Shown here: one piece after another, positions 4,344-29,376 of the stretch
Numbering within the stretch: the first letter of the stretch is position 1
Layout of the letters: every line of letters begins with the position of its first letter
Assembly: GCF_000695095.2 (NCBI RefSeq)
Contig: NZ_CP011454.1
Coordinates: 3,038,001 to 3,102,000 of the forward strand
Direction: 5' to 3'
DNA from: Gemmatimonas phototrophica
GTDB lineage: Bacteria > Gemmatimonadota > Gemmatimonadetes > Gemmatimonadales > Gemmatimonadaceae
Length of the DNA: 64,000 bases
The notes under the pieces: model-generated
What the model saw: the letters and a program-made list of their open reading frames with translations, nothing else
Told to the model about the DNA's origin: nothing
Database searches by the model: none
Made by a program: the position numbers and the translations under genes

Positions 4344-6569
4344 TTAGCGGCCTGGGGGCGGCGTGACGCCTTCGTCCAGGATGTGGGGCGTGACCAGGAT
4401 GAGGAGGTCGCGCTTGGTCTCGTTCTTGGAGTTCTGCGAGAAGAGCCGGCCGACGAACGGCAGATTCATGAGCACCGGGATGCCGCTCCGGAAGCGCGTG
4501 GTTTCGGTTACCGTGAGTCCGCCAATCACGGCCGCCTCACCATCCGCCACGAGCACCTGCGATTCGGCGCGCTGCCGGTTGAAGATGACGCCCACATCCG
4601 TCTGAGAGATTTCCGCGCTGGAATTCTCCGCCTTGATGTTCATGAGCACCATCTTGTTGTTCGTGATCTGGGGCGTCACCGAGAGCTTGATACCGGCTTC
4701 TTCCTTGGACACGGCGGCCCGGGGGAAGAAGGCGGCCGCATTGGGCGCCTGGGCGCCGGCTCCACCGCCGGCACCACCGCCACCACCGCCACCGCCACCC
4801 TGCGCGCCCTGTCCACCGGCGTCGATCACTCGGATCGGGATTTCCTGACCGACGAAGATCTCAGCGCTCCGGTTGTTCAGGATCGTGATGCTGGGCTCCG
4901 ACTGCACATCCGCCAGGGACGTGGTCTGCAGCGCGTTGAGGAACGCGGTCAACTGATAGCGACCGAGTGCCGTGCTGTAGATCAGGTTGAGGGCGTTGGG
5001 CTTGATGGCATTGTTGGCGTTGGCAATACCAGCGATGGCGTTACCGCCGAGGGCGATGCGCGCCGGGCCCTGGAAGGGCGCTCCGCCACCCGTCGCGTCA
5101 GGCACCCCGTCGCCGTCCGTATCAATGGCGGTCAGCGTGGCCGGATCGGTACGCGGAACCAGCTGCTGGAAGAACTGCTTGTTGCCGGTGCCGAGGTCGT
5201 AGGCGAGACCGATATCCTGAATGCCGGTGCGATTCACGAACACGATCTTCGCCTTGATGGCCACCTGCGGCGTGCGCACATCGAGCTGCTGAATGCGCGA
5301 CACGATTTCCGGCAGGCGCGAGGGGACTTCCGTGATGATCAGCTTGTTGGTGGCGCTATCCGACGCCACCGAGCCACGCACCACGCACCCCTGCCCGCCC
5401 ATCTGCTGCTGATTACCCTGCGAACCGCCACCAGACTGATTCATCGGCATGCCGAGATCGCGGCCCGTAGCCATGGTGCTGAGTCCCGTGCAATCCCGGG
5501 CGAGCAGCGCCTGCACCGTATTGCGGAGCACGGCGGCCTTGGCGTAGTTGATGTCTACGATCTGGGTGACCAGCGGCTCGAGCGCCTGGTTGGACGCCAG
5601 GTTCCGGTAGCTATCCACCGAGATGATCCCGCTGGCGTCTTCCGTGGCGGCCAGTCCCTGCGACTGCAGGATGGCCTGCAGGGCGACGTCCCACGGCTTG
5701 TCGGCGATATCGGCGGTGACCGTGCCGTCCACATCCTTGCCCACGACGATGGTGCGTCCCGAGAAGGTGGCGAAGGCCGCAATCACGTCGCGGATGCTGG
5801 TGCCATCATACGACACCGTGATGCGGGGCTTCTGCTGCTGACGACGCGCGGCCGAGATGGACGCTTCCGACGCGGGGGTCCGCGGGGTGAGCATGCCTTC
5901 GGAGTTCACGTCAATCTTTGGCGCCTCCACCTTGGCCGGTTCCGCCTTGAGCGGCTCCGACTTGGCGACGTCAATCCGGACCGGTTCACTGATCGCGGCC
6001 GGCGCCGCGTCCGGCTTGCGCGCGGAATCGGCGGGAGCGGCGGTCGCAGGAACGGCAACCGGTGATTCGAGGCGACCCGTGGCGACGGCCGTCACGTTCG
6101 TGGACGCGCGGCCAGTCCCCCAGCGGGCAAACTGTGCCGACGGCGCTTCGATATTGATGCGCACACTGTTCCCGTCACGCTCGACGGTATACTTGTGGGC
6201 CGCATCGAGGTCAATCACGAGACGCGCCGTGTCGGCCCGGAACTGCGAGAGGCGGACATTGCGAACCGCTCCGCGCGCCTTGCCATCGTAGTTGGACGGG
6301 ATGGCCAGATTGGCGCCGCCCAGGTCCACCACGATGCGGGTGGGATTGCTGAGCGTGAAGTGGTTCAGCGTGACCGCGGCATCTACGTCGAGCACGATGG
6401 CGGTGCCATTTGGTGCCGGCGCTACTTCAATGGCGCGTACGCGACCACGGATCACCGCGTCGTCATTGGTGATGGCCGTAGCGGCCGAGGGGGCAGTGTG
6501 TGGCGCGGGAGTGGGCGCAGTGCCCACCAGCATCGCGGCCATCACCGCAACGGTCGTCGGTCCCATCAT
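4344..6569 (-). CDS. pilQ: Type IV pilus secretin PilQ
   Basis: Outer-membrane secretin through which the type IV pilus passes. The 741 aa protein has an N-terminal signal sequence, an AMIN domain (about residues 35-145, peptidoglycan-binding type) and a Pro/Ala/Lys-rich linker. A secretin/TonB short N-terminal (STN) domain follows (about 245-315), then N-domain repeats (LIITEVPSRLPEIVSRIQ). The C-terminal secretin domain carries VGQEIPIRV and LVADGEAAVIGGL and ends LLILVTPHIL. Two low-complexity inserts are visible: a Gln/Gly/Asn loop near 390 and a long glycine run near 595. The start overlaps the pilP stop by 4 bases (ATGA). Confidence 0.95.
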   Translation of the reverse strand: MMGPTTVAVMAAMLVGTAPTPAPHTAPSAATAITNDDAVIRGRVRAIEVAPAPNGTAIVLDVDAAVTLNHFTLSNPTRIVVDLGGANLAIPSNYDGKARGAVRNVRLSQFRADTARLVIDLDAAHKYTVERDGNSVRINIEAPSAQFARWGTGRASTNVTAVATGRLESPVAVPATAAPADSARKPDAAPAAISEPVRIDVAKSEPLKAEPAKVEAPKIDVNSEGMLTPRTPASEASISAARRQQQKPRITVSYDGTSIRDVIAAFATFSGRTIVVGKDVDGTVTADIADKPWDVALQAILQSQGLAATEDASGIISVDSYRNLASNQALEPLVTQIVDINYAKAAVLRNTVQALLARDCTGLSTMATGRDLGMPMNQSGGGSQGNQQQMGGQGCVVRGSVASDSATNKLIITEVPSRLPEIVSRIQQLDVRTPQVAIKAKIVFVNRTGIQDIGLAYDLGTGNKQFFQQLVPRTDPATLTAIDTDGDGVPDATGGGAPFQGPARIALGGNAIAGIANANNAIKPNALNLIYSTALGRYQLTAFLNALQTTSLADVQSEPSITILNNRSAEIFVGQEIPIRVIDAGGQGAQGGGGGGGGGAGGGAGAQAPNAAAFFPRAAVSKEEAGIKLSVTPQITNNKMVLMNIKAENSSAEISQTDVGVIFNRQRAESQVLVADGEAAVIGGLTVTETTRFRSGIPVLMNLPFVGRLFSQNSKNETKRDLLILVTPHILDEGVTPPPGR

Positions 6570-7075
6570 GGATTCCTCACTTTCGTCGTGTCGCTGCTCA
6601 GCGGCAGCGTCTCCTGCCGATTGAATCCGAATTCCTCGATTGTGAACTGCACCGCCTTCTGGCGGATCCCACTCACGCGCAACCGCCCCAACTGCTGGCC
6701 GACCCGCACGCGATACTGTGTTTTGGAGTACGTGTCGCGCAGAATCGCCACCGAGTTGTTGCCGGCGGGATCAAACGCCACCGCCGTGAGGCGCAAGTCG
6801 CTCAAGAGCGGGCGGACATCGCTGCTGGACATGAGCGACTTGTACGGGTCGCGACGGCCACCACCGCTGTACGCAAAGGCTTCGCGCTGAATGGTGATTT
6901 CGGACGGCGTCGTCACTTTCTTGCTCTCGGCTTTTGCGGCCGGGGCAATGGGTGCACTGACGGTACCGGCCGACTCGCCGCGCACCGTACGCGCCGGCGT
7001 CTGGGCCTGCGCCACCTGGACACCCGCGAGGCTGCTCGCCATCACGACTGTGAGGAACCGCGTGAACCGGGTCAT
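6566..7075 (-). CDS. pilP: Type IV pilus assembly protein PilP-like
   Basis: A 169 aa periplasmic protein with a Sec signal (cleavage probably after AQAQ, near residue 25). The family's GRRDPY motif sits near residue 78. A compact beta domain follows (LRLTAVAFD, YRVRVGQQLG, GIRQKAVQFTIEE), matching the PilP fold that links PilNO to the secretin. Classical PilP is a lipoprotein, but no lipobox Cys is visible here, so it would be soluble or anchored by an uncleaved signal. It overlaps pilO by 4 bases (ATGA) and pilQ by 4 bases, indicating translational coupling. Confidence 0.87.
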   Translation of the reverse strand: MTRFTRFLTVVMASSLAGVQVAQAQTPARTVRGESAGTVSAPIAPAAKAESKKVTTPSEITIQREAFAYSGGGRRDPYKSLMSSSDVRPLLSDLRLTAVAFDPAGNNSVAILRDTYSKTQYRVRVGQQLGRLRVSGIRQKAVQFTIEEFGFNRQETLPLSSDTTKVRNP

Positions 7076-7689
7076 GACGACCGCTCCTTCGAGCGCGGCG
7101 CGGGCGCCGTCTTCTCGACGTAGGTCTGCAGGGTGATGGTCGCGGCCAGCGATCCCTTTTCCGACGTGCGCACCTGGCCGCGCTGGACATTGGACGAACC
7201 GGCCATGATGGAGAAGTTCACCGGCGCCACAATACGCGGGAGCGATCCCACGTTGGCGAGGAACTCGCCGAACTGGTGATAGCCACCGATGATGGTGACA
7301 GTATAGCGATAGGTATCGAAGCGCTCGCCCACGATGACCGGCTCGGGGACCACGCCGCCAACATCGAGACCGGCCCGACGTGCCGCCGTGCTGACTTCCT
7401 CGAGCAGCGCCGGAACTTCGTTGCCGGTGGGCACCAGGCGGCGCATGACTGTCAGCGCCGAGCGATTCTGCGCAGCCTGTGAACGCAGCTCTTCGATGCT
7501 GCCACTGGCGAACTCGCGCGCCGCCTTCTGGTTGGCGTCCTCGAGTTCGGCCACGTGCGTTTCATCGAGCAGCAGCTGTTCGTTCTTGGACGCATACGGA
7601 TACATCCAGTACATGACCGCCAAGGCGATCGCCGAGAAGCCGATCAACAGCTTGACCTGATCTCGCTGGGAGGTAGGAAGGAGAGCCAT
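7072..7689 (-). CDS. pilO: Type IV pilus inner-membrane protein PilO
   Basis: Inner-membrane alignment protein that pairs with PilN. I chose the ATG at 7689 (MALLPTSQRDQVKL), 8 bases after pilN; a longer reading frame to 7764 would overlap pilN. The product is 205 aa: a single membrane helix (about residues 12-31), a coiled-coil stretch (LLDETHVAELEDANQKAA), and a ferredoxin-like periplasmic domain (YRYTVTIIGGYHQFGEFL). That order matches PilO. It is coupled to pilP by ATGA. Confidence 0.9.
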   Translation of the reverse strand: MALLPTSQRDQVKLLIGFSAIALAVMYWMYPYASKNEQLLLDETHVAELEDANQKAAREFASGSIEELRSQAAQNRSALTVMRRLVPTGNEVPALLEEVSTAARRAGLDVGGVVPEPVIVGERFDTYRYTVTIIGGYHQFGEFLANVGSLPRIVAPVNFSIMAGSSNVQRGQVRTSEKGSLAATITLQTYVEKTAPAPRSKERSS

Positions 7690-7696
7690 GGCGTAC

Positions 7697-8461
7697 TCAG
7701 CGAACAGGGACGACGAGTGGGGTCGTGCGAACGACACCCGGGGGCGGTACTTCGAATTCGGCACTCAGTTCGAACTGCGTCACATCTTTGCCATCCACAA
7801 TGACGATCTCCGACTTGGCGAGTGTGACTTTCTGGATGAACGGCGAGCTTTCGAGCTGGCGCATGAACATCGTGAGGGCCTGGATATCGACCGTCTGGCC
7901 CACCACCCGGAATCCGAGCGGCGGATGCACATTGATCGTGTCCGCGGCCGCGGCTTCCGCGGCCTTCTTCTTGGCTGCGGCACCGGCGGCACCGACCGGT
8001 TCCGCAGCCGCCACGGTGTCAACGCCCGGCGGCAACGGAGCCTTGGTGGTCTGCTCCATGATGGTCAGCCACGTGTACGCCGGCAGCGCGCGACTTACTT
8101 CATCGAGGATGTGCGCCCAGTTGTAGCGGTTGTCATCGATGGTGCGGATGATCTGCAACTGGCGGATCACGGAGTCACGTTCGGCGGTGAGCTTCCGGCG
8201 TGCGGAGAGCACCTTGGCGTAGCGCGTCGAATCGCGGACCGCGCGCTCCATACGGCCTTCCACTTCCGTGGCGCGTGCACTCTGCGCGGTGAAGAGCAGA
8301 CCGACGGTGGCGACGGCCACCACCACGGAGGCGGCAGCACCGAGGAGCCAGGGGTCCCGGATGTTCGAGCCGATCGCCCCGAAAGCGCCCGCAAGCGCGA
8401 AGCCGCCCGACGAACTCTTTCCCTTCTTCGAACCGGGCAGGAGGTTGATTTGCAGCATCAT
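7697..8461 (-). CDS. pilN: Type IV pilus inner-membrane protein PilN
   Basis: A 254 aa protein opening with the family's short cytoplasmic INLLPG motif (residues 5-10), which docks into PilM. An insert of about 25 residues precedes one membrane helix (about 38-60) and a long helical segment. A periplasmic domain follows (YNWAHILDEVSRALP, TWLTIMEQTT). An Ala/Lys-rich low-complexity insert lies near residues 155-175. It sits between pilM and pilO in the standard order. The second Met, at 8458, is an equally possible start. Confidence 0.92.
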   Translation of the reverse strand: MMLQINLLPGSKKGKSSSGGFALAGAFGAIGSNIRDPWLLGAAASVVVAVATVGLLFTAQSARATEVEGRMERAVRDSTRYAKVLSARRKLTAERDSVIRQLQIIRTIDDNRYNWAHILDEVSRALPAYTWLTIMEQTTKAPLPPGVDTVAAAEPVGAAGAAAKKKAAEAAAADTINVHPPLGFRVVGQTVDIQALTMFMRQLESSPFIQKVTLAKSEIVIVDGKDVTQFELSAEFEVPPPGVVRTTPLVVPVR

Positions 8462-8480
8462 AGGTCGTTTCCTCGGGCGC

Positions 8481-9554
8481 TCAGGCGACGGCGCGAAGCG
8501 CGAGTCCCACCGGCAGCATCAGCAGCGGAGCGACTTCGTCGGTGGACAGGAACTCGAACGCGCCTTCGCGTACGGCCAGCTTGGCCAACGCATTGGCCGG
8601 CTGCACCGGAATGCGCAACCGATCGGACAGCCAGGGCAACAGTCCCGGCACGCGGGCCCCACCGCCGCACGCGTAGACGGCGCGGATGGTGCCGAAGTTG
8701 CGCTGGGAGGTGGACAGGAACGTGGCGGCCCGTTCCATCCCGATGGCGATTTCTTCGCCACGCATGGACACCACGCCGTCGAGCATGGGGTGACGGTCGT
8801 AGCCGCGCAGAAGATCTTCGGCGTCTTCGGCGCTCATGCCGTTCTCACGCTGCAGATCCTCACGGAAGCGGCGCGTGCCCACGCCGAGGTCGCGGGTCAG
8901 GATCGGCACACCTTCGTCGAGGATATTCAGGTTGGTGGCTTCGTTCCCGATGTTGAGCAGCGCAATCGTGCCGGTCAGTGCCTCGGGATAGTTGGCCTCG
9001 AATGCGTTGTGCAATGCAAAGGCGTCCACATCGATGACGGCTGGCGATGCCCCCGCCTCGGTCAGCAACGATTGCTTGGCTTCCACCAGATCGCGCTTGG
9101 CCGCCACGAGCAGCACGCTCATGTCGAGGCCGTCGCCGTCCGGATCGAGCACCTGGAAATCGAGTTCGACGGAGTCCATGTCGAAGGGCACGTGCTGCTC
9201 GGCTTCCCACCGCATGAGCTCACGCGCCTGCTGTTCCTTGACCCGCTCCATCTGAATCTTCTTGACGATGACATCGCGCCCGCCGACGGCGGCCACGATG
9301 TTCTTGGTTTTGGCCCCCGTTGCCGCAATGGTCTGGCGGATGGCATCGGCCACGATCCCGTGGTCCATGACTTCACCTTCAACGATTGCCGTGTCGTTGA
9401 GCGGGGTGATCACGACTTTCGCCAACTCGGGAACGGGGCCACTGTGGTCAATGACCACGGCCTTGACGAGCCCGGATCCAACATCGAGCCCGATAGTGAG
9501 TTTCTTCCGGCCGAAGAGCGCCATGGGACGGGGGGGTTGCACAGTGGTTTGCAT
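8481..9554 (-). CDS. pilM: Type IV pilus assembly ATPase-fold protein PilM
   Basis: Cytoplasmic actin-fold protein that binds the PilN N-terminus. The 357 aa product has the actin-like phosphate 1 motif LTIGLDVGSGLVKAVV and 'AAVGGRDVIVKKI'. A second phosphate motif (IALLNIGNEATNL) and the adenosine-binding CGGGARVPGL follow. Two starts are possible: ATG 9554 (MQTTVQPP) or ATG 9524 (MALFGRKK), the second resembling typical PilM N-termini. It is the first gene of pilMNOPQ. The preceding 190 bases (9555-9747) must hold the operon promoter, but I see no convincing sigma-54 element there. Confidence 0.94.
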   Translation of the reverse strand: MQTTVQPPRPMALFGRKKLTIGLDVGSGLVKAVVIDHSGPVPELAKVVITPLNDTAIVEGEVMDHGIVADAIRQTIAATGAKTKNIVAAVGGRDVIVKKIQMERVKEQQARELMRWEAEQHVPFDMDSVELDFQVLDPDGDGLDMSVLLVAAKRDLVEAKQSLLTEAGASPAVIDVDAFALHNAFEANYPEALTGTIALLNIGNEATNLNILDEGVPILTRDLGVGTRRFREDLQRENGMSAEDAEDLLRGYDRHPMLDGVVSMRGEEIAIGMERAATFLSTSQRNFGTIRAVYACGGGARVPGLLPWLSDRLRIPVQPANALAKLAVREGAFEFLSTDEVAPLLMLPVGLALRAVA

Positions 9555-21092: not shown

Positions 21093-21812
21093 TCAGAACG
21101 CGATGAAGTTGACGCCAATGTAGTACGTGATGAAATCGGCGCGCCCGCGGACCGGCACGGGGGTGGCATTGCTTTCGTAGGCCTGCTTCACGCGATCCGC
21201 CGTCAGGTAGCGGACGTCATCATGGCGCAGGAATCGCGCCCCGAGGTCCAGCCGTACGGGGGTATTGCCATTGGATACCCTGAAATAGCCACCCACGGCA
21301 CCGCCGTACGCCCAGACGGCGTCGCTGGAATTGGTGGTGCTGGCAAACGGATCGGCATTCTGCGAGCCCTCAACCGAGCTCTCCGTCCAGAAGACCGAGA
21401 AGCCACCGAGAGCTGTGGCATACGGGGTGAACACCCCGGTGGGACCGAGCAACTGCGGGCCCACCACCACGGTGGCAATATTGCTGGTGGTCCGCAGGTC
21501 GAGCTGAATGAGCCCACCAGTTCCGGCCAACGGAATACGCCGCCGGTTGTTGGCGTACGAGATGAACGAGAAATCGCCCCGCAGGTTGAGGATCTTATTG
21601 TCGTCGAGGGCGCCGAGGATATACCCCCCCAGCCCGAAGCCATTGTTGGTATTGGCGGCGAAGTCCCCTTTGGGCTCGGTCACCTGGAGATGAATGCCAA
21701 CCGACCCCCGACCGGACGGGCGATTCACGGGACCGGCATCCTGGGCCACGAGGGCCGCAGGAAGACTCATGACGGTTGCCGCCGCAGCGGCCAGCAGAAG
21801 TGAAGTACGCAT
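21093..21812 (-). CDS. Outer-membrane beta-barrel-like protein
   Basis: A 239 aa protein with a Sec signal peptide (MRTSLLLAAAAATVMSLP...VAQ, cleavage near residue 23). Amphipathic strands with alternating aromatic residues follow (GSVGIHLQVTEPKGDF, GFGLGGYILGAL), ending in ITYYIGVNFIAF. The C-terminal aromatic residue is the usual signal for outer-membrane barrel insertion. An eight-strand OmpA/OmpW-like barrel is plausible. The gene converges with arfB, 13 bases apart. Substrate or role is unknown. Confidence 0.8.
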   Translation of the reverse strand: MRTSLLLAAAAATVMSLPAALVAQDAGPVNRPSGRGSVGIHLQVTEPKGDFAANTNNGFGLGGYILGALDDNKILNLRGDFSFISYANNRRRIPLAGTGGLIQLDLRTTSNIATVVVGPQLLGPTGVFTPYATALGGFSVFWTESSVEGSQNADPFASTTNSSDAVWAYGGAVGGYFRVSNGNTPVRLDLGARFLRHDDVRYLTADRVKQAYESNATPVPVRGRADFITYYIGVNFIAF

Positions 21813-22499: not shown

Positions 22500-24737
22500 A
22501 TGTCGGCTCAATCAACCCGCGTTAATCAACTCATCTCTGAATCGCTCGGACTGGATGTCGAGCAGTCACGCTGGCGCGCGTTGACGCGTCAGGTTTCGGC
22601 TCAGGATCCGCTGTCCGAACGCCTGCGTTCCATTGGGGGCGCCGTTGATATCGGCTATCTCGACCGGTCGCTGTCGCCGGCCGAGATCCGCTCGGCGATT
22701 GATCAGAAGCAGTTGCCCCTCGTGCTGCTGTGCAGCAATGGTGAGGATGCCATTGTGTTGCGTAGCGGTGAGGGGAAGATCGGCGTCACGGCGCACGTGG
22801 TCACGCGCGACGGTACCGAGACGGTGGTCGCAGATACCCCTGACCAGCTCACCGAAGAGGTCGTGCGTCGCCTGGGGCATGCGTCGAACATTCCGGCGTT
22901 GGCGCCCATGGCGTTACGGTCGGCCACCGCGGCCCGTGGTGACGGGGCGCCGCACAGCCCGATCGGCCTGGCGCACGATCATCATGGGGATGAGCATCGC
23001 TCCCCGGTCGATCGGACCTTCGCGCTCATGGCGCGCGAGAAGCGGGAGATTCTCACGGTCTTCTTCTACGCGACTCTGGCCGGTGGGTTGAGTCTCATTC
23101 TGCCGCTCGCCGTTGGCGGCATTGTCCAGCTGGTGCAGGGGCGCCTGTTTCTGCAACCCGTAGTCGTTCTGATTTCGTTTGTGGTGCTGGGAACGATTGT
23201 GGCGGGCGTGCTGCAGATCGGCATTCTCAAGGTGGTGGAGCGCATCCAGCAGCGTGTCTTCGCACGCATGGCGCTCGAGTTTGCCTTTCGCGTGCCGCGC
23301 ATGAAGTACTCGGCATCGTTGGAGCAGAATCTGCCGGAGCAGATGAATCGACTGTTTGAAGCCGTTGCCATTCAAAAGGGCGTGCAGAAGCTGCTAATCG
23401 ATGTGCCCACGGCGCTGCTGACGGTCATGTTCGGCCTCATTCTGCTCACCGTGTACAGCCCGTGGTTCTCGCTGTTTGCCGTGGCGGTGCTCTTCATCCT
23501 GTATCTGATCATCCGCTGGACGGGCCCGGAAGGGCTGCAGACGTCGATTGTGGAGTCGAAGTACAAGTACAAGGCCGTGCACTGGCTCGAGGAGATTGCC
23601 CGCGCGTTTCATGCCTTCAAGTACGCCGGCGATTCAACGCTGCCGGTGGAGCGCATGGATGACGTGATCACGGGCTATTTGAAGTACCGCAAAAAACACT
23701 TCGCCGTGCTGGTGAAGCAGACCATTGCGCTCATTGGCTTCAAGACCTTCATCACCGCCGCGGTGCTGATCATCGGGGCCACGCTGGTGCAGACCAACCG
23801 TCTGCTGCTGGGGCAATTCGTGGCCGCCGAAGTGGTTATCGTGACCGTGCTGGCGGGCGTGGAAAAGCTGATCACCAGCCTGGCCACGGTGTATGATGTC
23901 CTCACCTCCGTCGACAAATCCGGGCACGTGGCGGATCTGCCGTTGGAAGGGCGTGGCGGGCTGGCCCCGCTGCACACCCCAGGCACGGGCGTGTCCATTG
24001 AGACCCGTGATCTGTCGTACCGTTATCCGGGAGCCGCCACGACCATCGTGAATGGCGTGACGCTGCGCATTCTGCCGGGCGAGCGGGTGGGGATCATGGG
24101 CGTGGATGGTTCCGGGCGGAGTACGCTGCTCAAACTGCTGGCCGGTTTGGTGGACGACTACGACGGCACGATCCGTTTCGATGGCATCACGCTGCGTGAC
24201 ATTGACCGTCCGGCGTTGCGGTCCCGTATCGGCCAGATGTTGTCATGGACCGATCTGTTTGATGGCACGATTGAAGAAAACGTGAGCGTGGGCCGCGCCC
24301 ATATCACGCCGCGGGACGTGCAGGAGGCGCTCGAGGACCTGCAGCTTACCGACGAAATTCAGCATCTGCCGCAGGGCATTCAGACCGAGCTGACGAACAG
24401 TGCGCGCAACCTCCCGGCGCATCTGGCCAACAAGCTGCTGGTGGCGCAGGGCATCGTGGGCAAACCCCGACTGGTCGTCTTCGACGATTTCTTCCAGAAC
24501 CTCGATGCCGCGTCGCGCTCGCTCATCATTCGTCTGCTGACGAATCGCGAACGCCCCTGGACGGTCCTGGCCGTGTCGCACGACCCGATGCTGCTGTCCG
24601 CATTTGACCGGGTGATTGTGGTGCACGAAGGCCAGGTGGTGCGCGAAGGGCGCTTTGAAGCCCTGCGCAGCGATCCCATCTGCCAGATGCTCATGCACGA
24701 TTTTGTGCACGAATCCCCCAAGACCAGCGGAGACTGA
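22500..24737 (+). CDS. Type I-like ABC exporter with a non-canonical ATPase domain
   Basis: A 745 aa half-transporter. Residues about 1-130 form a domain where C39 peptidase-like domains normally sit, but I see no Cys-His pair, so it would be inactive. The membrane domain spans about 180-470. The ATPase domain (about 495-735) keeps the Q-loop (GQMLSW) and H-loop (SHD, His694). Its key motifs are altered. Walker A is GVDGSGRST, with Arg540 for the essential Lys. The LSGGQ signature is replaced by NLPAHLANKL (637-646). Walker B ends DD (662-663), so the catalytic Glu is Asp. It is followed at 3 bases by an HlyD-type and then a TolC-type gene. Confidence 0.9.
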   Translation: MSAQSTRVNQLISESLGLDVEQSRWRALTRQVSAQDPLSERLRSIGGAVDIGYLDRSLSPAEIRSAIDQKQLPLVLLCSNGEDAIVLRSGEGKIGVTAHVVTRDGTETVVADTPDQLTEEVVRRLGHASNIPALAPMALRSATAARGDGAPHSPIGLAHDHHGDEHRSPVDRTFALMAREKREILTVFFYATLAGGLSLILPLAVGGIVQLVQGRLFLQPVVVLISFVVLGTIVAGVLQIGILKVVERIQQRVFARMALEFAFRVPRMKYSASLEQNLPEQMNRLFEAVAIQKGVQKLLIDVPTALLTVMFGLILLTVYSPWFSLFAVAVLFILYLIIRWTGPEGLQTSIVESKYKYKAVHWLEEIARAFHAFKYAGDSTLPVERMDDVITGYLKYRKKHFAVLVKQTIALIGFKTFITAAVLIIGATLVQTNRLLLGQFVAAEVVIVTVLAGVEKLITSLATVYDVLTSVDKSGHVADLPLEGRGGLAPLHTPGTGVSIETRDLSYRYPGAATTIVNGVTLRILPGERVGIMGVDGSGRSTLLKLLAGLVDDYDGTIRFDGITLRDIDRPALRSRIGQMLSWTDLFDGTIEENVSVGRAHITPRDVQEALEDLQLTDEIQHLPQGIQTELTNSARNLPAHLANKLLVAQGIVGKPRLVVFDDFFQNLDAASRSLIIRLLTNRERPWTVLAVSHDPMLLSAFDRVIVVHEGQVVREGRFEALRSDPICQMLMHDFVHESPKTSGD

Positions 24738-24740
24738 CCC

Positions 24741-26087
24741 ATGGCCACCTCCGATATCGATATCGAACGCGAGCTCAAGAACCTTCCGCTCGAAACCACC
24801 ACGTTGCTCGGCAAAGCCGACAGCGGCCGGATTGTGTCACGGTGGCTCATTGGCATCATCGTCGTCCTCGTGCTCATCCTGTTCCTGCCGTGGCAGCAGA
24901 ACGTGCAGGGCACAGGGAACATCACGGCGCTCAGTCCGTCCGACCGTCCGCAGCAGTTGCAAACCCGGATCGATGGTCGGATTGAGGCGTGGTATGTGGC
25001 CGAAGGGCAGTACGTCAAAAAGGGCGACTCCATCGTCCTCATTTCGGAAATCAAGGAGGAGTACCTCAATCCGAATGTGCTGTCGCTGACACAGCAGCAG
25101 CAGGATGCCAAGCAGAGCGCCATTGGCGAGAAGCTCAACAAGGCCACGGCGCTGGAGCAGCTGATTACGCAGTTGGAGCAGCAGCGCGAATTCAAGCTGC
25201 AACAGACGCGCAACAAGCTGCTGCAGTATCAGGCGGAAGTCCGGCAGGCGACCCTTGAGGACTCGGTGGCGCGGGATCAGTTGCGCCGTCGCGAGCGGCT
25301 CTTCCGGGATACGCTGGGATTGGTCTCGGTGAACGACCTGCAGACGTTTCAGGTGCGCGTGCAGTCCGCGGCCGCCAAGCTGGTCGAGAAGCAGCAGATG
25401 CTGGCCATTACCCAGACGGACATCGAAAGCATTCCGGCCGAATACGGTGAAAAAATTGCCAAGGCGAGTTCGGATCGGGCTGCCACACTCTCCGAGGTCA
25501 GTGAAGGGCGTTCGGAGGTGGCGAAACTGAAGGACAAGGTCGGGTCGATCACCATTCGCAACGGGTTCTACGTGATCAAGGCCCCACAGGATGGCTATGT
25601 GGTGCGGGCCACGCGTGCCGGCCAGGGCGAAATCGTGAAGTCGGGAGAGCCCATTGTCACGGTGCAGCCTGCCCGTCCCAGCAAGGCGGTCGAGTTGTAC
25701 GTGCGCCCGATGGACGTGGCGCTGCTCAAGCCGGGTCGCCATGTCCGCGTATTCTTTGACGGCTGGCCAGCGCTTCAGATCTCCGGGTGGCCGCAGGTGG
25801 CGGTTGGCACCTTTGGTGCGCAGGTGGCCGTCATCGACCAGTTCCCGAGTTCCGACGGTCGTTTCCGCGTCTTGCTGGTGCCGGACACGACCCATGATGA
25901 GCCGTGGCCGGCGCAATTGCGTCTTGGCACCGGTGCGGAAGGGTGGGCCATGTTGGACAACGTGACGGTGGGTTGGGAAATCTGGCGTCAGTTGAATGGC
26001 TTCCCGCTGTCGATCAAGCCGGGGGATGCGTTGCCGGGCGAAGCGGTGGCGGGTGACAAGGGCAAGGGTGATGGAGGGAAGAAGTGA
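24741..26087 (+). CDS. HlyD-family membrane fusion protein
   Basis: A 448 aa periplasmic adaptor. It has a short cytoplasmic N-terminus and one membrane helix (about residues 33-50, GIIVVLVLILFLPW). The lipoyl/barrel-sandwich half-motif is IDGRIEAWYVAEGQYVKKGD. A long alpha-helical hairpin rich in Gln/Glu/Lys follows (about 110-270). The second lipoyl half is FYVIKAPQDGYVVRA, and a beta-barrel domain completes the fold. A Lys/Gly-rich tail ends the protein. It should bridge the ABC subunit and the outer-membrane channel of this operon. It begins 3 bases after the ABC stop and overlaps the next gene by 4 bases. Confidence 0.93.
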   Translation: MATSDIDIERELKNLPLETTTLLGKADSGRIVSRWLIGIIVVLVLILFLPWQQNVQGTGNITALSPSDRPQQLQTRIDGRIEAWYVAEGQYVKKGDSIVLISEIKEEYLNPNVLSLTQQQQDAKQSAIGEKLNKATALEQLITQLEQQREFKLQQTRNKLLQYQAEVRQATLEDSVARDQLRRRERLFRDTLGLVSVNDLQTFQVRVQSAAAKLVEKQQMLAITQTDIESIPAEYGEKIAKASSDRAATLSEVSEGRSEVAKLKDKVGSITIRNGFYVIKAPQDGYVVRATRAGQGEIVKSGEPIVTVQPARPSKAVELYVRPMDVALLKPGRHVRVFFDGWPALQISGWPQVAVGTFGAQVAVIDQFPSSDGRFRVLLVPDTTHDEPWPAQLRLGTGAEGWAMLDNVTVGWEIWRQLNGFPLSIKPGDALPGEAVAGDKGKGDGGKK

Positions 26088-27583
26088 TGAGGCGGCTTGT
26101 CTACGCCGCCTTCCTTCCGCCACTGCTTCTTCTCGATGTTCGCCCCCTGCCGGGTCAGGGTACGCCCCCGCGCGATAGTGCGCGGCTGCGCACCAGCGCC
26201 CTCGTCGGGACCGTGGTGGACACGGTCGGGATGCCGTTTCCCTTTCCCGCGTTCGTTGATGTGGTGCTGGCCAATCATCCGGTAGCCGCTCAGGCTCGCC
26301 TGGTGGCCGAACAGGCGCGGGCGGAATTGCGACAGGCGTGGGGGGCCTTTGACCCCAAGCTGGTGGCAACGTGGGATCAGAAGCGCTTTGGCGGCACCGA
26401 GTACTTCAAGTACTTCGATGCGGAGATGAAGATTCCGCTTCCCATCGGGGCCGATGTGACGCTCGCCTTCGATCGTACGATGGGCCGCTATTTCAATCCG
26501 GATCGTCGCACCACCGGCAACGGCACCTTTTCGGCAGGGATCTCGCTGCCGCTGGGCCAACGCATCATTACCGATGAACGGCGGACGGCGCTGCAACAGG
26601 CTCGGGCAGCCCGAGACGCCGGTGACGCCGAGCGCATCGGGATTCTGAACAAACTCCTGTTTTCGGCGGCCAAAGACTACGGCGTCTGGTACGAAACGTG
26701 GCGACGTCGGGCAATCGCTCAGGAAGGGGAGGCGCTCGCGGACTTCCGGCTCCAGGCCGTACGACAGCGGGTGGCCAACGGCGAAAGTGCGCCAATCGAT
26801 ACCATCGAAGCGCTGCTGGAGCTGCAGCGTCGCCAGGTGACCCGCTACGAGACCGATGCCTCGTTTTACGTGTCGACGCTGAACCTCACGGCGTATGTGT
26901 GGGACAGCGAGGGTCGGCCAGCGGCCCTGCCCGGAGATGCCAAACCGGTGCTGGACGGTGTAGGACGTGGCGGGCTCGACTCCACCCGTCTTGATGCCCT
27001 GATCGACGTTGCCACCCGCCGCAATCCGGACCTGCTCAAGGTGCAGGCCAAGGTGAAGCAGGCGGAGGCGGAGCGTCTGCTGGCCACGCAAGGCATGATT
27101 CCGCTGGCCGAAGCCAAACTGGCCGGCTTGGCGGAGCGCGGTGGTGACGACGCATTCTTTGACCGTTCACGTCTGGACAACAACTACAAGGCGGGGTTGT
27201 CGGTCAGCACGCCGTTGTTGTTCCTCAAGGAAACCGGAAAATTTGCGGCCACCGGGGCAAAACTCGAGTTCCAGCAATACGAGCGCGATCGTTTGCGGCG
27301 GGACATCGAGTTTGATGCGCGGGCGGCCATTTTCGACCTCGCCAATCTGGAGCGGCTGCTGGAGCGCCAGTCGGCGAACGTACGCAATGCGCGTCTCTTG
27401 CGGGATGCTGAGCAGATCCGGTTTGAGAACGGCGAAAGCACCCTGCTGATTCTGAATCTGCGGGAGCGCCTGGTGCTGGACGAGGCCGGCAAGCTGGCGG
27501 CGCTCGAGGGGAAGGTTGCGGCGGCCCGGGGGGCTCTGGCATTGGCAACCGGCGACCGAACGCTCCTGACAATTCCGCGCTAA
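26084..27583 (+). CDS. TolC-family outer-membrane efflux protein
   Basis: A 499 aa outer-membrane channel protein. A signal peptide (LVYAAFLPPLLLLDVRPLPGQG) is followed by the duplicated TolC pattern. Each half has 'FPAFVDVVLANHPVAAQARLV'-type helices: the first near residues 45-75 and the second near 305-345 (DVATRRNPDLLKVQAKVKQAE). Long helices follow each, plus 'GLSVSTPLLFLKE' strand-like segments. It is the third gene of the exporter operon, overlapping the HlyD gene by ATGA. That completes an ABC-adaptor-channel set for one-step export across both membranes. Confidence 0.92.
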   Translation: MMRRLVYAAFLPPLLLLDVRPLPGQGTPPRDSARLRTSALVGTVVDTVGMPFPFPAFVDVVLANHPVAAQARLVAEQARAELRQAWGAFDPKLVATWDQKRFGGTEYFKYFDAEMKIPLPIGADVTLAFDRTMGRYFNPDRRTTGNGTFSAGISLPLGQRIITDERRTALQQARAARDAGDAERIGILNKLLFSAAKDYGVWYETWRRRAIAQEGEALADFRLQAVRQRVANGESAPIDTIEALLELQRRQVTRYETDASFYVSTLNLTAYVWDSEGRPAALPGDAKPVLDGVGRGGLDSTRLDALIDVATRRNPDLLKVQAKVKQAEAERLLATQGMIPLAEAKLAGLAERGGDDAFFDRSRLDNNYKAGLSVSTPLLFLKETGKFAATGAKLEFQQYERDRLRRDIEFDARAAIFDLANLERLLERQSANVRNARLLRDAEQIRFENGESTLLILNLRERLVLDEAGKLAALEGKVAAARGALALATGDRTLLTIPR

Positions 27584-27593
27584 GTTTATCCGT

Positions 27594-27914
27594 ATGGCTG
27601 ACAAGTATTTTGACGAAGACCCCGAGTTCTCCGGCGAACTCGATGAAGACTTCAACGACGACGCGTTACTCGATGACGACGAGGATGACGAGGCGGACGG
27701 CGACGGCGTGGCCGATCTGTCCGGCCTCGTCCACTGTCCGTATTGTGGCGAGTCGGTAGAGATCTCCCTCGACCCCGGATCCGGGGCCAACCAACAGTAC
27801 ATCGAAGACTGTCAGGTGTGCTGCCGACCGTGGCTGGTGTCGGTGAGCTATGACGAGGATGGGACGGCCCATGTCTTTGTGGACGCCAGCGACGACCACG
27901 ATAGCGATGACTGA
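27594..27914 (+). CDS. CPXCG motif cysteine-rich protein
   Basis: A small 106 aa acidic protein. Residues 1-45 are Asp/Glu-rich and probably disordered. A compact zinc-ribbon-like core follows with CPYCGE and then EDCQVCCRPW, the hallmark of the CPXCG cysteine-rich family (Pfam Cys_rich_CPXG). The C-terminus is a short acidic tail. Function is unknown for the family; metal binding by the four or five Cys is expected. It follows the TolC gene by 10 bases and overlaps the CHAD-CYTH gene by 8, so it may be read from the same transcript. Confidence 0.87.
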   Translation: MADKYFDEDPEFSGELDEDFNDDALLDDDEDDEADGDGVADLSGLVHCPYCGESVEISLDPGSGANQQYIEDCQVCCRPWLVSVSYDEDGTAHVFVDASDDHDSDD

Positions 27915-29376
27915 TCCGCGCACTCCTACGGCAGACGACGTACGCCGTCTGCTTGGAGAGGCGCTCCGTCGTCCGGCCCAGGAAGGCGCACGGCTGATGG
28001 CGCTGCACTGGCTGCACCAACTGGTGGCGGCGCGGGAGTTGTGGGAGGCCTCGCAACGGAATCCGGCGAGCGATGTGCGCGGACGTGAGGTTGAGACGCG
28101 CGACGTAACCAGCGACGCTCTGCACAAGGCGCGCGTGGCGTTGCGTCGTTTGCGCGCAACCTTGCGTGAGAACGACCGCGTGCTGGATGGCGCGGTGGAT
28201 CGACGGTTGTTGCGGGCGCTCAGCCGCCTGGGCCAGGCCACCAATGCTGTACGTGATGCCGATGTGCAGCGCGCGTGGCTGGAAACCGAGGAAGAGCGGC
28301 TTCCTGAAGGCGCGCGTGACGAAGCGCGGCGCCTGCGGGCGTGGCTGGACGAGCGTACATCGCACGCCACCGAAGATGTGGGCGGCGCGTTTGCCGCCTA
28401 TCTCGATCCCATCGAAGATCGGTTGTTTGCCCGGCTCGGCAGCTATCAGCTGCAGCGACGTGTGGGTGTGGAATCCACCCCCATGCCGTTCGCGCGACAC
28501 CTCGCCACGCGCGTTGGGCGCGCCGAGAACCGCCTGCGGCGGGACATTGGACGCATCACGGATGTCTCGTCGCAGGACGCGATGCACGGCGTGCGTATTC
28601 GCCTCAAGCGTCAGCGAGCCTTGCTTGCGCCGTTTGCCCGCTCACGCCCGGCCATTGGGGCCTGGTTTGATCTGGCCACGCGAGGGCAGGATGTGCTGGG
28701 AGCCATTCGGGACGCCGACCTGCTGGCGCGCCGCGCCCGAAAGGCCGGATTGCACGTGCTCGGTCAGGCCCTTGCGGACAATGTGCTCGCGCACTTTGCC
28801 GTGTTTCAGCAGGACTGGTGTGAACGACTGGATGACGTAATGCGCACCATGGAGGCGGCGGTCAACAGTCTGCGGGGCGAAGGGATGCCCATGTCGTCCA
28901 ACGGCCTGCCCATGGAGATTGAACGCAAGTTTCTATTGCGCAGCTGTCCGCCGGCGGCCCGCACCGTCCCCCCTATACGCATTGAACAGGGGTGGATCCC
29001 GGGACAGGCACTACGCGAACGGTTGCGCCGTAGCACAGCGCCCGATGGCAGTGTGACCTGCTGGCGAACGGTAAAGCTGGGGCCTGCCGAGGCACGGGTC
29101 GAGGTGGAAGAGGTTACGCCTCCGGAGATCTTTGATGCCATGTGGGGAATCACGCGGAGCGCTCGAGTACGCAAGGATCGTTATGTGGTGCCTCACGGTG
29201 CGCACACCTGGGAGATCGACGTTTTCCTCGACCGGGACCTCGTGCTCGCCGAAGTGGAGCTTGGTGATGTGCACGAAGCCATCACGTTGCCACCGTGGCT
29301 CGCCCCGTATCTGGAGCGCGATGTGACAGGCGAACCGGCCTACTTCAATGCAGTCCTCGCCCGCCCCGAGTCATAA
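27907..29376 (+). CDS. CHAD-CYTH fusion protein (reversed domain order)
   Basis: A 489 aa protein. Residues about 10-325 are an Arg/His-rich all-helical CHAD domain, visible as two repeats each with a conserved basic helix: 'ALHKARVALRRLRATLR' and 'AMHGVRIRLKRQRALL'. Residues 336-489 are a CYTH triphosphate tunnel domain with the signature MEIERKFLL and alternating charged strands (VEVEEVTPPE, WEIDVFLD, AEVELGDV). CHAD domains bind polyphosphate, and CYTH enzymes hydrolyse or cyclise triphosphates. In the fusions I know, CYTH precedes CHAD, so the order here is reversed. I chose ATG 27907, which overlaps the CPXCG gene. Confidence 0.9.
   Translation: MTDPRTPTADDVRRLLGEALRRPAQEGARLMALHWLHQLVAARELWEASQRNPASDVRGREVETRDVTSDALHKARVALRRLRATLRENDRVLDGAVDRRLLRALSRLGQATNAVRDADVQRAWLETEEERLPEGARDEARRLRAWLDERTSHATEDVGGAFAAYLDPIEDRLFARLGSYQLQRRVGVESTPMPFARHLATRVGRAENRLRRDIGRITDVSSQDAMHGVRIRLKRQRALLAPFARSRPAIGAWFDLATRGQDVLGAIRDADLLARRARKAGLHVLGQALADNVLAHFAVFQQDWCERLDDVMRTMEAAVNSLRGEGMPMSSNGLPMEIERKFLLRSCPPAARTVPPIRIEQGWIPGQALRERLRRSTAPDGSVTCWRTVKLGPAEARVEVEEVTPPEIFDAMWGITRSARVRKDRYVVPHGAHTWEIDVFLDRDLVLAEVELGDVHEAITLPPWLAPYLERDVTGEPAYFNAVLARPES

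Follow-up and report, generated by a model that had tools for sequence, protein, structure and literature searches.

Comparative analysis shows that, in the lineage of Gemmatimonas phototrophica, the inner-membrane subunit of a three-gene export operon has lost its motifs for ATP hydrolysis, that relatives have lost the nucleotide-binding domain (NBD) altogether, and that the transmembrane domain (TMD) has been kept together with a HlyD adaptor and a TolC channel as a selected unit. The operon lies in the window, a stretch of 64,000 nucleotides (bases 3038001-3102000 of the complete 4.72 Mb genome), and its features are all on the forward strand. It encodes an ATP-binding cassette (ABC)-type exporter subunit of 745 aa, made up of a C39-like domain, a TMD and a degenerate NBD (22500..24737; 947 bits against the family hidden Markov model), a HlyD-family periplasmic adaptor of 448 aa (24741..26087; scores for Pfam HlyD_3) and a TolC/OEP-family outer-membrane channel (26084..27583, starting with GTG at 26084 or ATG at 26087; scores for Pfam OEP). 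The best overall explanation is that the system is an exporter with the tripartite architecture of type I secretion whose inner-membrane subunit has probably turned into a pseudo-ATPase.

The NBD (aa 498-725, 23991..24674) keeps its fold (Pfam ABC_tran, 59.5 bits; the predicted model superposes on the NBD of TAP1 with Z 28.1 and a root mean square deviation of 2.2 over 246 aa) but has lost its catalytic motifs. Motif alignment upheld most of what an earlier note had read from the letters of this DNA: Walker A (GVDGSGRST, 24099..24125) carries Arg540 in place of the Lys, the former signature motif reads NLPAHLANKLLVAQ (aa 637-650, 24408..24449), with NLPAHL instead of LSGGQ, Walker B (LVVFDDFF, 24471..24494) has Asp663 in place of the catalytic Glu, and the H-loop (AVSHD, 24570..24584) is intact, with His694, which is Asn in some close relatives. 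The same note had called the Q-loop intact, and there it erred: in the region IGQMLSWTDLF (24228..24260), followed by the family-conserved LFDGTIEEN, the column of the conserved exporter Gln holds Ser582, and Gln579 sits three residues earlier. Besides the H-loop, the P-loop glycines and the A-loop Tyr are retained. The changes are not due to chance, as all Gemmatimonas relatives examined have altered motifs as well.

To place these changes in the family, motifs were counted among non-identical proteins. In Acidobacteriota and Armatimonadota, the Walker A Lys and an S-x-G-Q signature are present in 26/26 proteins and the Walker B Asp-Glu in 25/26. Bacteroidota have kept the Lys in 36/36, mostly lost the signature, and retain Asp-Glu in only 20/36. 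Among Nitrospirota, the canonical signature is found in 0/31; the Lys persists in 29/31, although the P-loop glycines are missing from most, and neither the catalytic Glu nor the H-loop His remains in any of the 31. Finally, the Lys survives in 1 of 48 Gemmatimonadota proteins and the canonical signature in none of the 48. The earlier note was thus right to expect altered motifs in relatives from other phyla, while a conserved alternative motif, for which it proposed to look, was not found: the residue in place of the Lys is variously R, Q, E, S or T among Gemmatimonadota, and the NLPAH-like signature is confined to the window's genus. We therefore reject a new, fixed ATP-binding motif, as the replacements vary between genera. 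The pattern is one of repeated loss of ATPase motifs that ends in complete loss of the NBD. Several Nitrospirota have tandem pairs of family genes, both degenerate, and often a further copy at another place in the genome; one such pair, in a Nitrospira metagenome-assembled genome (L049), lies at 6001-7668 and about 7770-9455, after HlyD and TolC, with similar pairs in L146-L158. The P-loops of the tandem copies are destroyed, with the Lys kept.

In a tree of the family, canonical members branch close to the base and degenerate groups are nested deeper; NBD-less members fall inside a Bacteroidota clade with a support of 98-99 and, at a separate place, among Nitrospirota. As this tree rests on a quick search of membrane-domain columns only and has long outgroup branches, its root is less certain than its inner groups. 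The general survey found proteins that end after the membrane domain in four Bacteroidota genomes and one Nitrospirota genome. A dedicated search of two Bacteroidota orders, which together with this sparse survey makes up our census, recovered 16 NBD-less genes in 15/148 genomes of one order and 47 genes in 46/151 of the other, an open frame of 333-374 aa being taken as NBD-less. HlyD directly adjoins the NBD-less gene in 35/35 Bacteroidota loci inspected, and no remnant of an NBD was detected nearby in these 35 loci. Because several of the NBD-less genes sit on megabase contigs, assembly error is implausible as the cause of the missing domain. We rejected, and did not count, one Nitrospirota candidate (G465, locus L236), as a frame break separates the membrane domain of the first of its two tandem genes from an NBD in another frame (4983-7478 and 6526-7269), owing to either a real frameshift or an assembly error. 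In a Nitrospirota genome (L237, 997-7210), the NBD-less gene is followed immediately by genes for DabA and a DabB-like proton-antiporter subunit, associated with inorganic carbon uptake. Searches of the open-access literature turned up no report of ABC exporters that naturally lack the NBD and occur with HlyD and TolC.

The low ratios of nonsynonymous to synonymous divergence (dN/dS, Nei-Gojobori) in close Gemmatimonas pairs indicate strong purifying selection on the operon. The TMD (aa 168-480, 23001..23939) is the most constrained part of the subunit (0-0.03), the C39-like domain (aa 1-140, 22500..22919) the least (0.13-0.29), and the NBD (0.04-0.13), HlyD (0.02-0.08) and TolC (0.02-0.06) are also constrained. 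NBD-less genes have a median dN/dS of 0.028 (20 close pairs). Since these natural NBD-less genes beside HlyD evolve under strong constraint, hydrolysis by the subunit's own NBD is very probably dispensable, with the TMD, HlyD and TolC forming the selected core. Domains were also compared within proteins: in ordinary exporters, the ratio of NBD to TMD divergence is 0.69, with the NBD more conserved in 98% of pairs, whereas degenerate Gemmatimonadota have a ratio of 1.28 (NBD more conserved in 6% of pairs) and Bacteroidota without Asp-Glu likewise 1.28 (0% of pairs), so that the usual, stronger constraint on the NBD is reversed. Canonical family members (0.93; 73% of pairs) and Nitrospirota (1.07) are intermediate.

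These proteins form a distinct family. A profile built from 17 relatives (A1) delimits it sharply, as members score 538-939 bits and all other ABC proteins at most 224 in ten relative genomes. Family members were found in 35/298 Gemmatimonadota, 45/198 Nitrospirota, 10/297 Acidobacteriota, 16/201 Armatimonadota and 75/296 Bacteroidota genomes, some of them metagenome-assembled, in counts that include a few fragmentary or membrane-domain-only matches at 310-360 bits and in which the labels of the latter four phyla rest on seed loci. HlyD and TolC genes stand beside the ABC gene in 51/53 loci with long flanks, and clustering of the flanking open reading frames of the 53 loci yielded only the three genes as common to all phyla, with no conserved cargo gene. 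With the three-nucleotide gap between the ABC and HlyD genes of the window, the overlap of the HlyD and TolC genes, and the Pfam matches of both partners, these data bear out the earlier note's view of complete and tightly coupled partners and its suggestion of a distinct exporter class; the lineage is widespread and comes with HlyD and TolC. One Riemerella operon (L293; NZ_CP081930.1, 88410-101312) lies in a record labelled as a plasmid and is surrounded by housekeeping genes (thymidine kinase, murF-alr, murB and rsmI), and the record may be a mislabelled piece of chromosome; of the flanking genes, only one fabG recurs in the other Bacteroidota loci. Within Gemmatimonadota only, the operon has further conserved neighbors, namely a 239 aa protein without a Pfam match that looks like an outer-membrane beta-barrel (21093-21812, reverse strand), a CPXCG zinc-ribbon protein (27594-27914, forward strand) and a downstream gene of 508 aa (27850-29376, forward strand).

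By its architecture, the system resembles type I secretion. The window protein has a type I exporter TMD (Pfam ABC_membrane, over the cut-off) and is co-encoded with a HlyD adaptor and a TolC channel, and, at full length, it matches the HlyB subunit of the HlyB/D complex best among PDB structures (8dck, over 750 alignment columns), with further matches to MsbA and others; the model of the full subunit used here is of moderate quality (predicted local distance difference test [pLDDT] 76, predicted template modeling score 0.58). The likeness extends to the N terminus, for which the earlier note had proposed an inactive peptidase-like domain. This was right in kind: the AlphaFold model of residues 1-140 (pLDDT 93) best matches 3b79, the C39-like domain of a toxin-secretion ABC protein (probability 1.00, template modeling scores 0.58/0.64, E 1.1e-3), the fold match being the only sign of the domain, as sequence searches, Pfam included, did not detect it, and no catalytic Cys was found in its helix 1. 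HlyB has a comparable C39-like domain (PMC8277102); most family members in other phyla lack it. Unlike HlyB, however, the window protein has no Walker A Lys, Q-loop Gln, signature or catalytic Glu, its relatives often lack the NBD, and no adjacent cargo was found. It also scores far under the cut-offs of the curated models (LssB, 184.9 versus 693.1; HlyB, 150.8 versus 725.55; PrtD, 153.8 versus 510.15). Because a catalytically competent NBD (Walker A Lys, LSGGQ and catalytic Glu) is absent and the curated cut-offs are missed, the protein is not filed here as a canonical type I secretion ABC transporter despite the shared architecture.

How might such an exporter be powered? The earlier note had suggested different energetics, which may well apply. 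Very likely, the functional core is a homodimer of the TMD that joins HlyD and TolC and works independently of hydrolysis by its own NBD, and a retained NBD is then a folded element for docking or gating that perhaps binds nucleotide. As to mechanism, the TMD dimer would act as a secondary exporter coupled to protons or sodium, with Glu444 in predicted transmembrane helix 6 (23829..23831; E288 in the NBD-less L234) as the candidate coupling residue. Position 444 is acidic in 81/81 degenerate proteins (Glu in 80, Asp in 1) and Glu in 36/36 distinct NBD-less loci (35 from Bacteroidota and 1 from Nitrospirota); canonical members have Glu in 15/25 and Gln in the rest, and outgroup ordinary exporters have no acidic residue there, mostly V, I or F. 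There is an experimental analogy, since the membrane domains of LmrA and MsbA without their NBDs catalyze proton-coupled transport and, in LmrA, proton-dependent transport requires Glu314 in helix 6 (PMC2704374, PMC6155054, PMC4979069). The engineered proteins LmrA-MD and MsbA-MD thus resemble our family in having the membrane domain of a type I exporter but no functional NBD and, for LmrA, an acidic residue in helix 6. They are, however, drug exporters truncated in the laboratory, whereas the NBD-less family members occur naturally, are conserved and are coupled to HlyD and TolC. By this analogy, ion-coupled export by the TMD dimer is the leading mechanism, tentatively held on its own account. 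The wider proposal, that envelope-spanning exporters form a natural class whose ABC TMD has abandoned ATP altogether through repeated ATPase loss and, ion coupled, feeds a HlyD-TolC duct, is a more tentative possibility.

Several points weigh against this explanation as a whole. Glu444 may be ancestral instead of an adaptation, given its presence in 15/25 canonical members; it is a candidate coupling residue whose correspondence in place to LmrA Glu314 is only supposed; and the three reports on LmrA and MsbA represent one line of experiments. Furthermore, residual ATP binding by the window NBD is plausible, considering the P-loop glycines, A-loop Tyr and H-loop that it keeps, and an NBD supplied in trans is possible, being compatible with the sequence.

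Foremost among the alternatives, the TMD, HlyD and TolC could form a passive or structural conduit, in which the former ABC subunit is an inner-membrane platform that organizes the adaptor and the duct, the substrate being driven by a gradient or a different pump. The existence of NBD-less members would suit such a role. So would the RND efflux pump that adjoins the NBD-less operon in two related Bacteroidota loci (L234, 8763-14224; L235, 10062-14337), a possible functional link; in L234 the pump is fused to an outer-membrane efflux domain and accompanied by a CusB-like adaptor. A different HlyD-type module that does without an ABC transporter has also been described: type I secretion-related HlyD/TolC-type loci with secondary SecA_DEAD proteins likewise have no working ABC ATPase (PMC4452313), but no ABC transporter was found there, while the window family keeps an ABC TMD and has no SecA_DEAD gene in its operon. 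However, the RND adjacency is confined to a few related Bacteroidota, so that we reject it as a general rule, and no RND pump was found near the window operon. The extreme conservation of the TMD helices also argues against a passive role, which we regard as unlikely.

Somewhat more doubtful is the idea that the NBD still binds nucleotide and that it acts as a facilitator gated by ATP or hydrolyzes ATP very slowly. Its kept fold, A-loop Tyr, H-loop and P-loop glycines speak for it, and its dN/dS shows that it is no free relic, but the Walker A Lys, Q-loop Gln, signature and catalytic Glu were lost jointly, and homologs dispense with the domain entirely.

The subunit could also have a canonical ABC half-transporter from another locus as its partner, in a heterodimer with one degenerate site. 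Such asymmetric pairs are common, as in TAP, TM287/288 and TmrAB, in which one subunit has Asp for the catalytic Glu, as in TmrB, or other altered motifs (PMC7756269, PMC8277102), and the window genome holds seven other ABC_membrane matches. Those proteins, however, pair with a canonical half, whereas the window operon encodes no partner and its gene appears to act alone. Our profile search found no family paralog in the window genome, and the operon has no conserved second ABC gene, HlyD and TolC being the only conserved neighbors; an extra ABC gene after TolC in L045 was considered as a partner and rejected, as it looks like an ordinary exporter with canonical motifs. In the Nitrospirota tandem pairs, moreover, both genes are degenerate, and NBD-less members would leave a partner NBD unpaired. 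A heterodimer is therefore improbable, slightly more so than a nucleotide-gated protein.

Decay into a pseudogene, to which the lost catalytic motifs might point, is rejected as the earlier note had foreseen, given intact reading frames in ~20 Gemmatimonas genomes, a conserved operon and strong purifying selection on every part of it.

We thus return to an exporter of type I secretion architecture in which a pseudo-ATPase has probably replaced the ATPase. The public annotation of one degenerate member reads "ABC transporter ATP-binding protein," and many such genes probably bear misleading names in genomes. ABC exporters are defined by ATP hydrolysis, and, in the literature covered here, ion-gradient transport by ABC membrane domains has rested on truncated LmrA and MsbA. 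Nature has made the same truncation in many species, under very strong selection and with the duct still in place. Canonical, degenerate and NBD-less members together form a series that provides material with which the power source of transport, and what the NBD contributes to it, may be tested.

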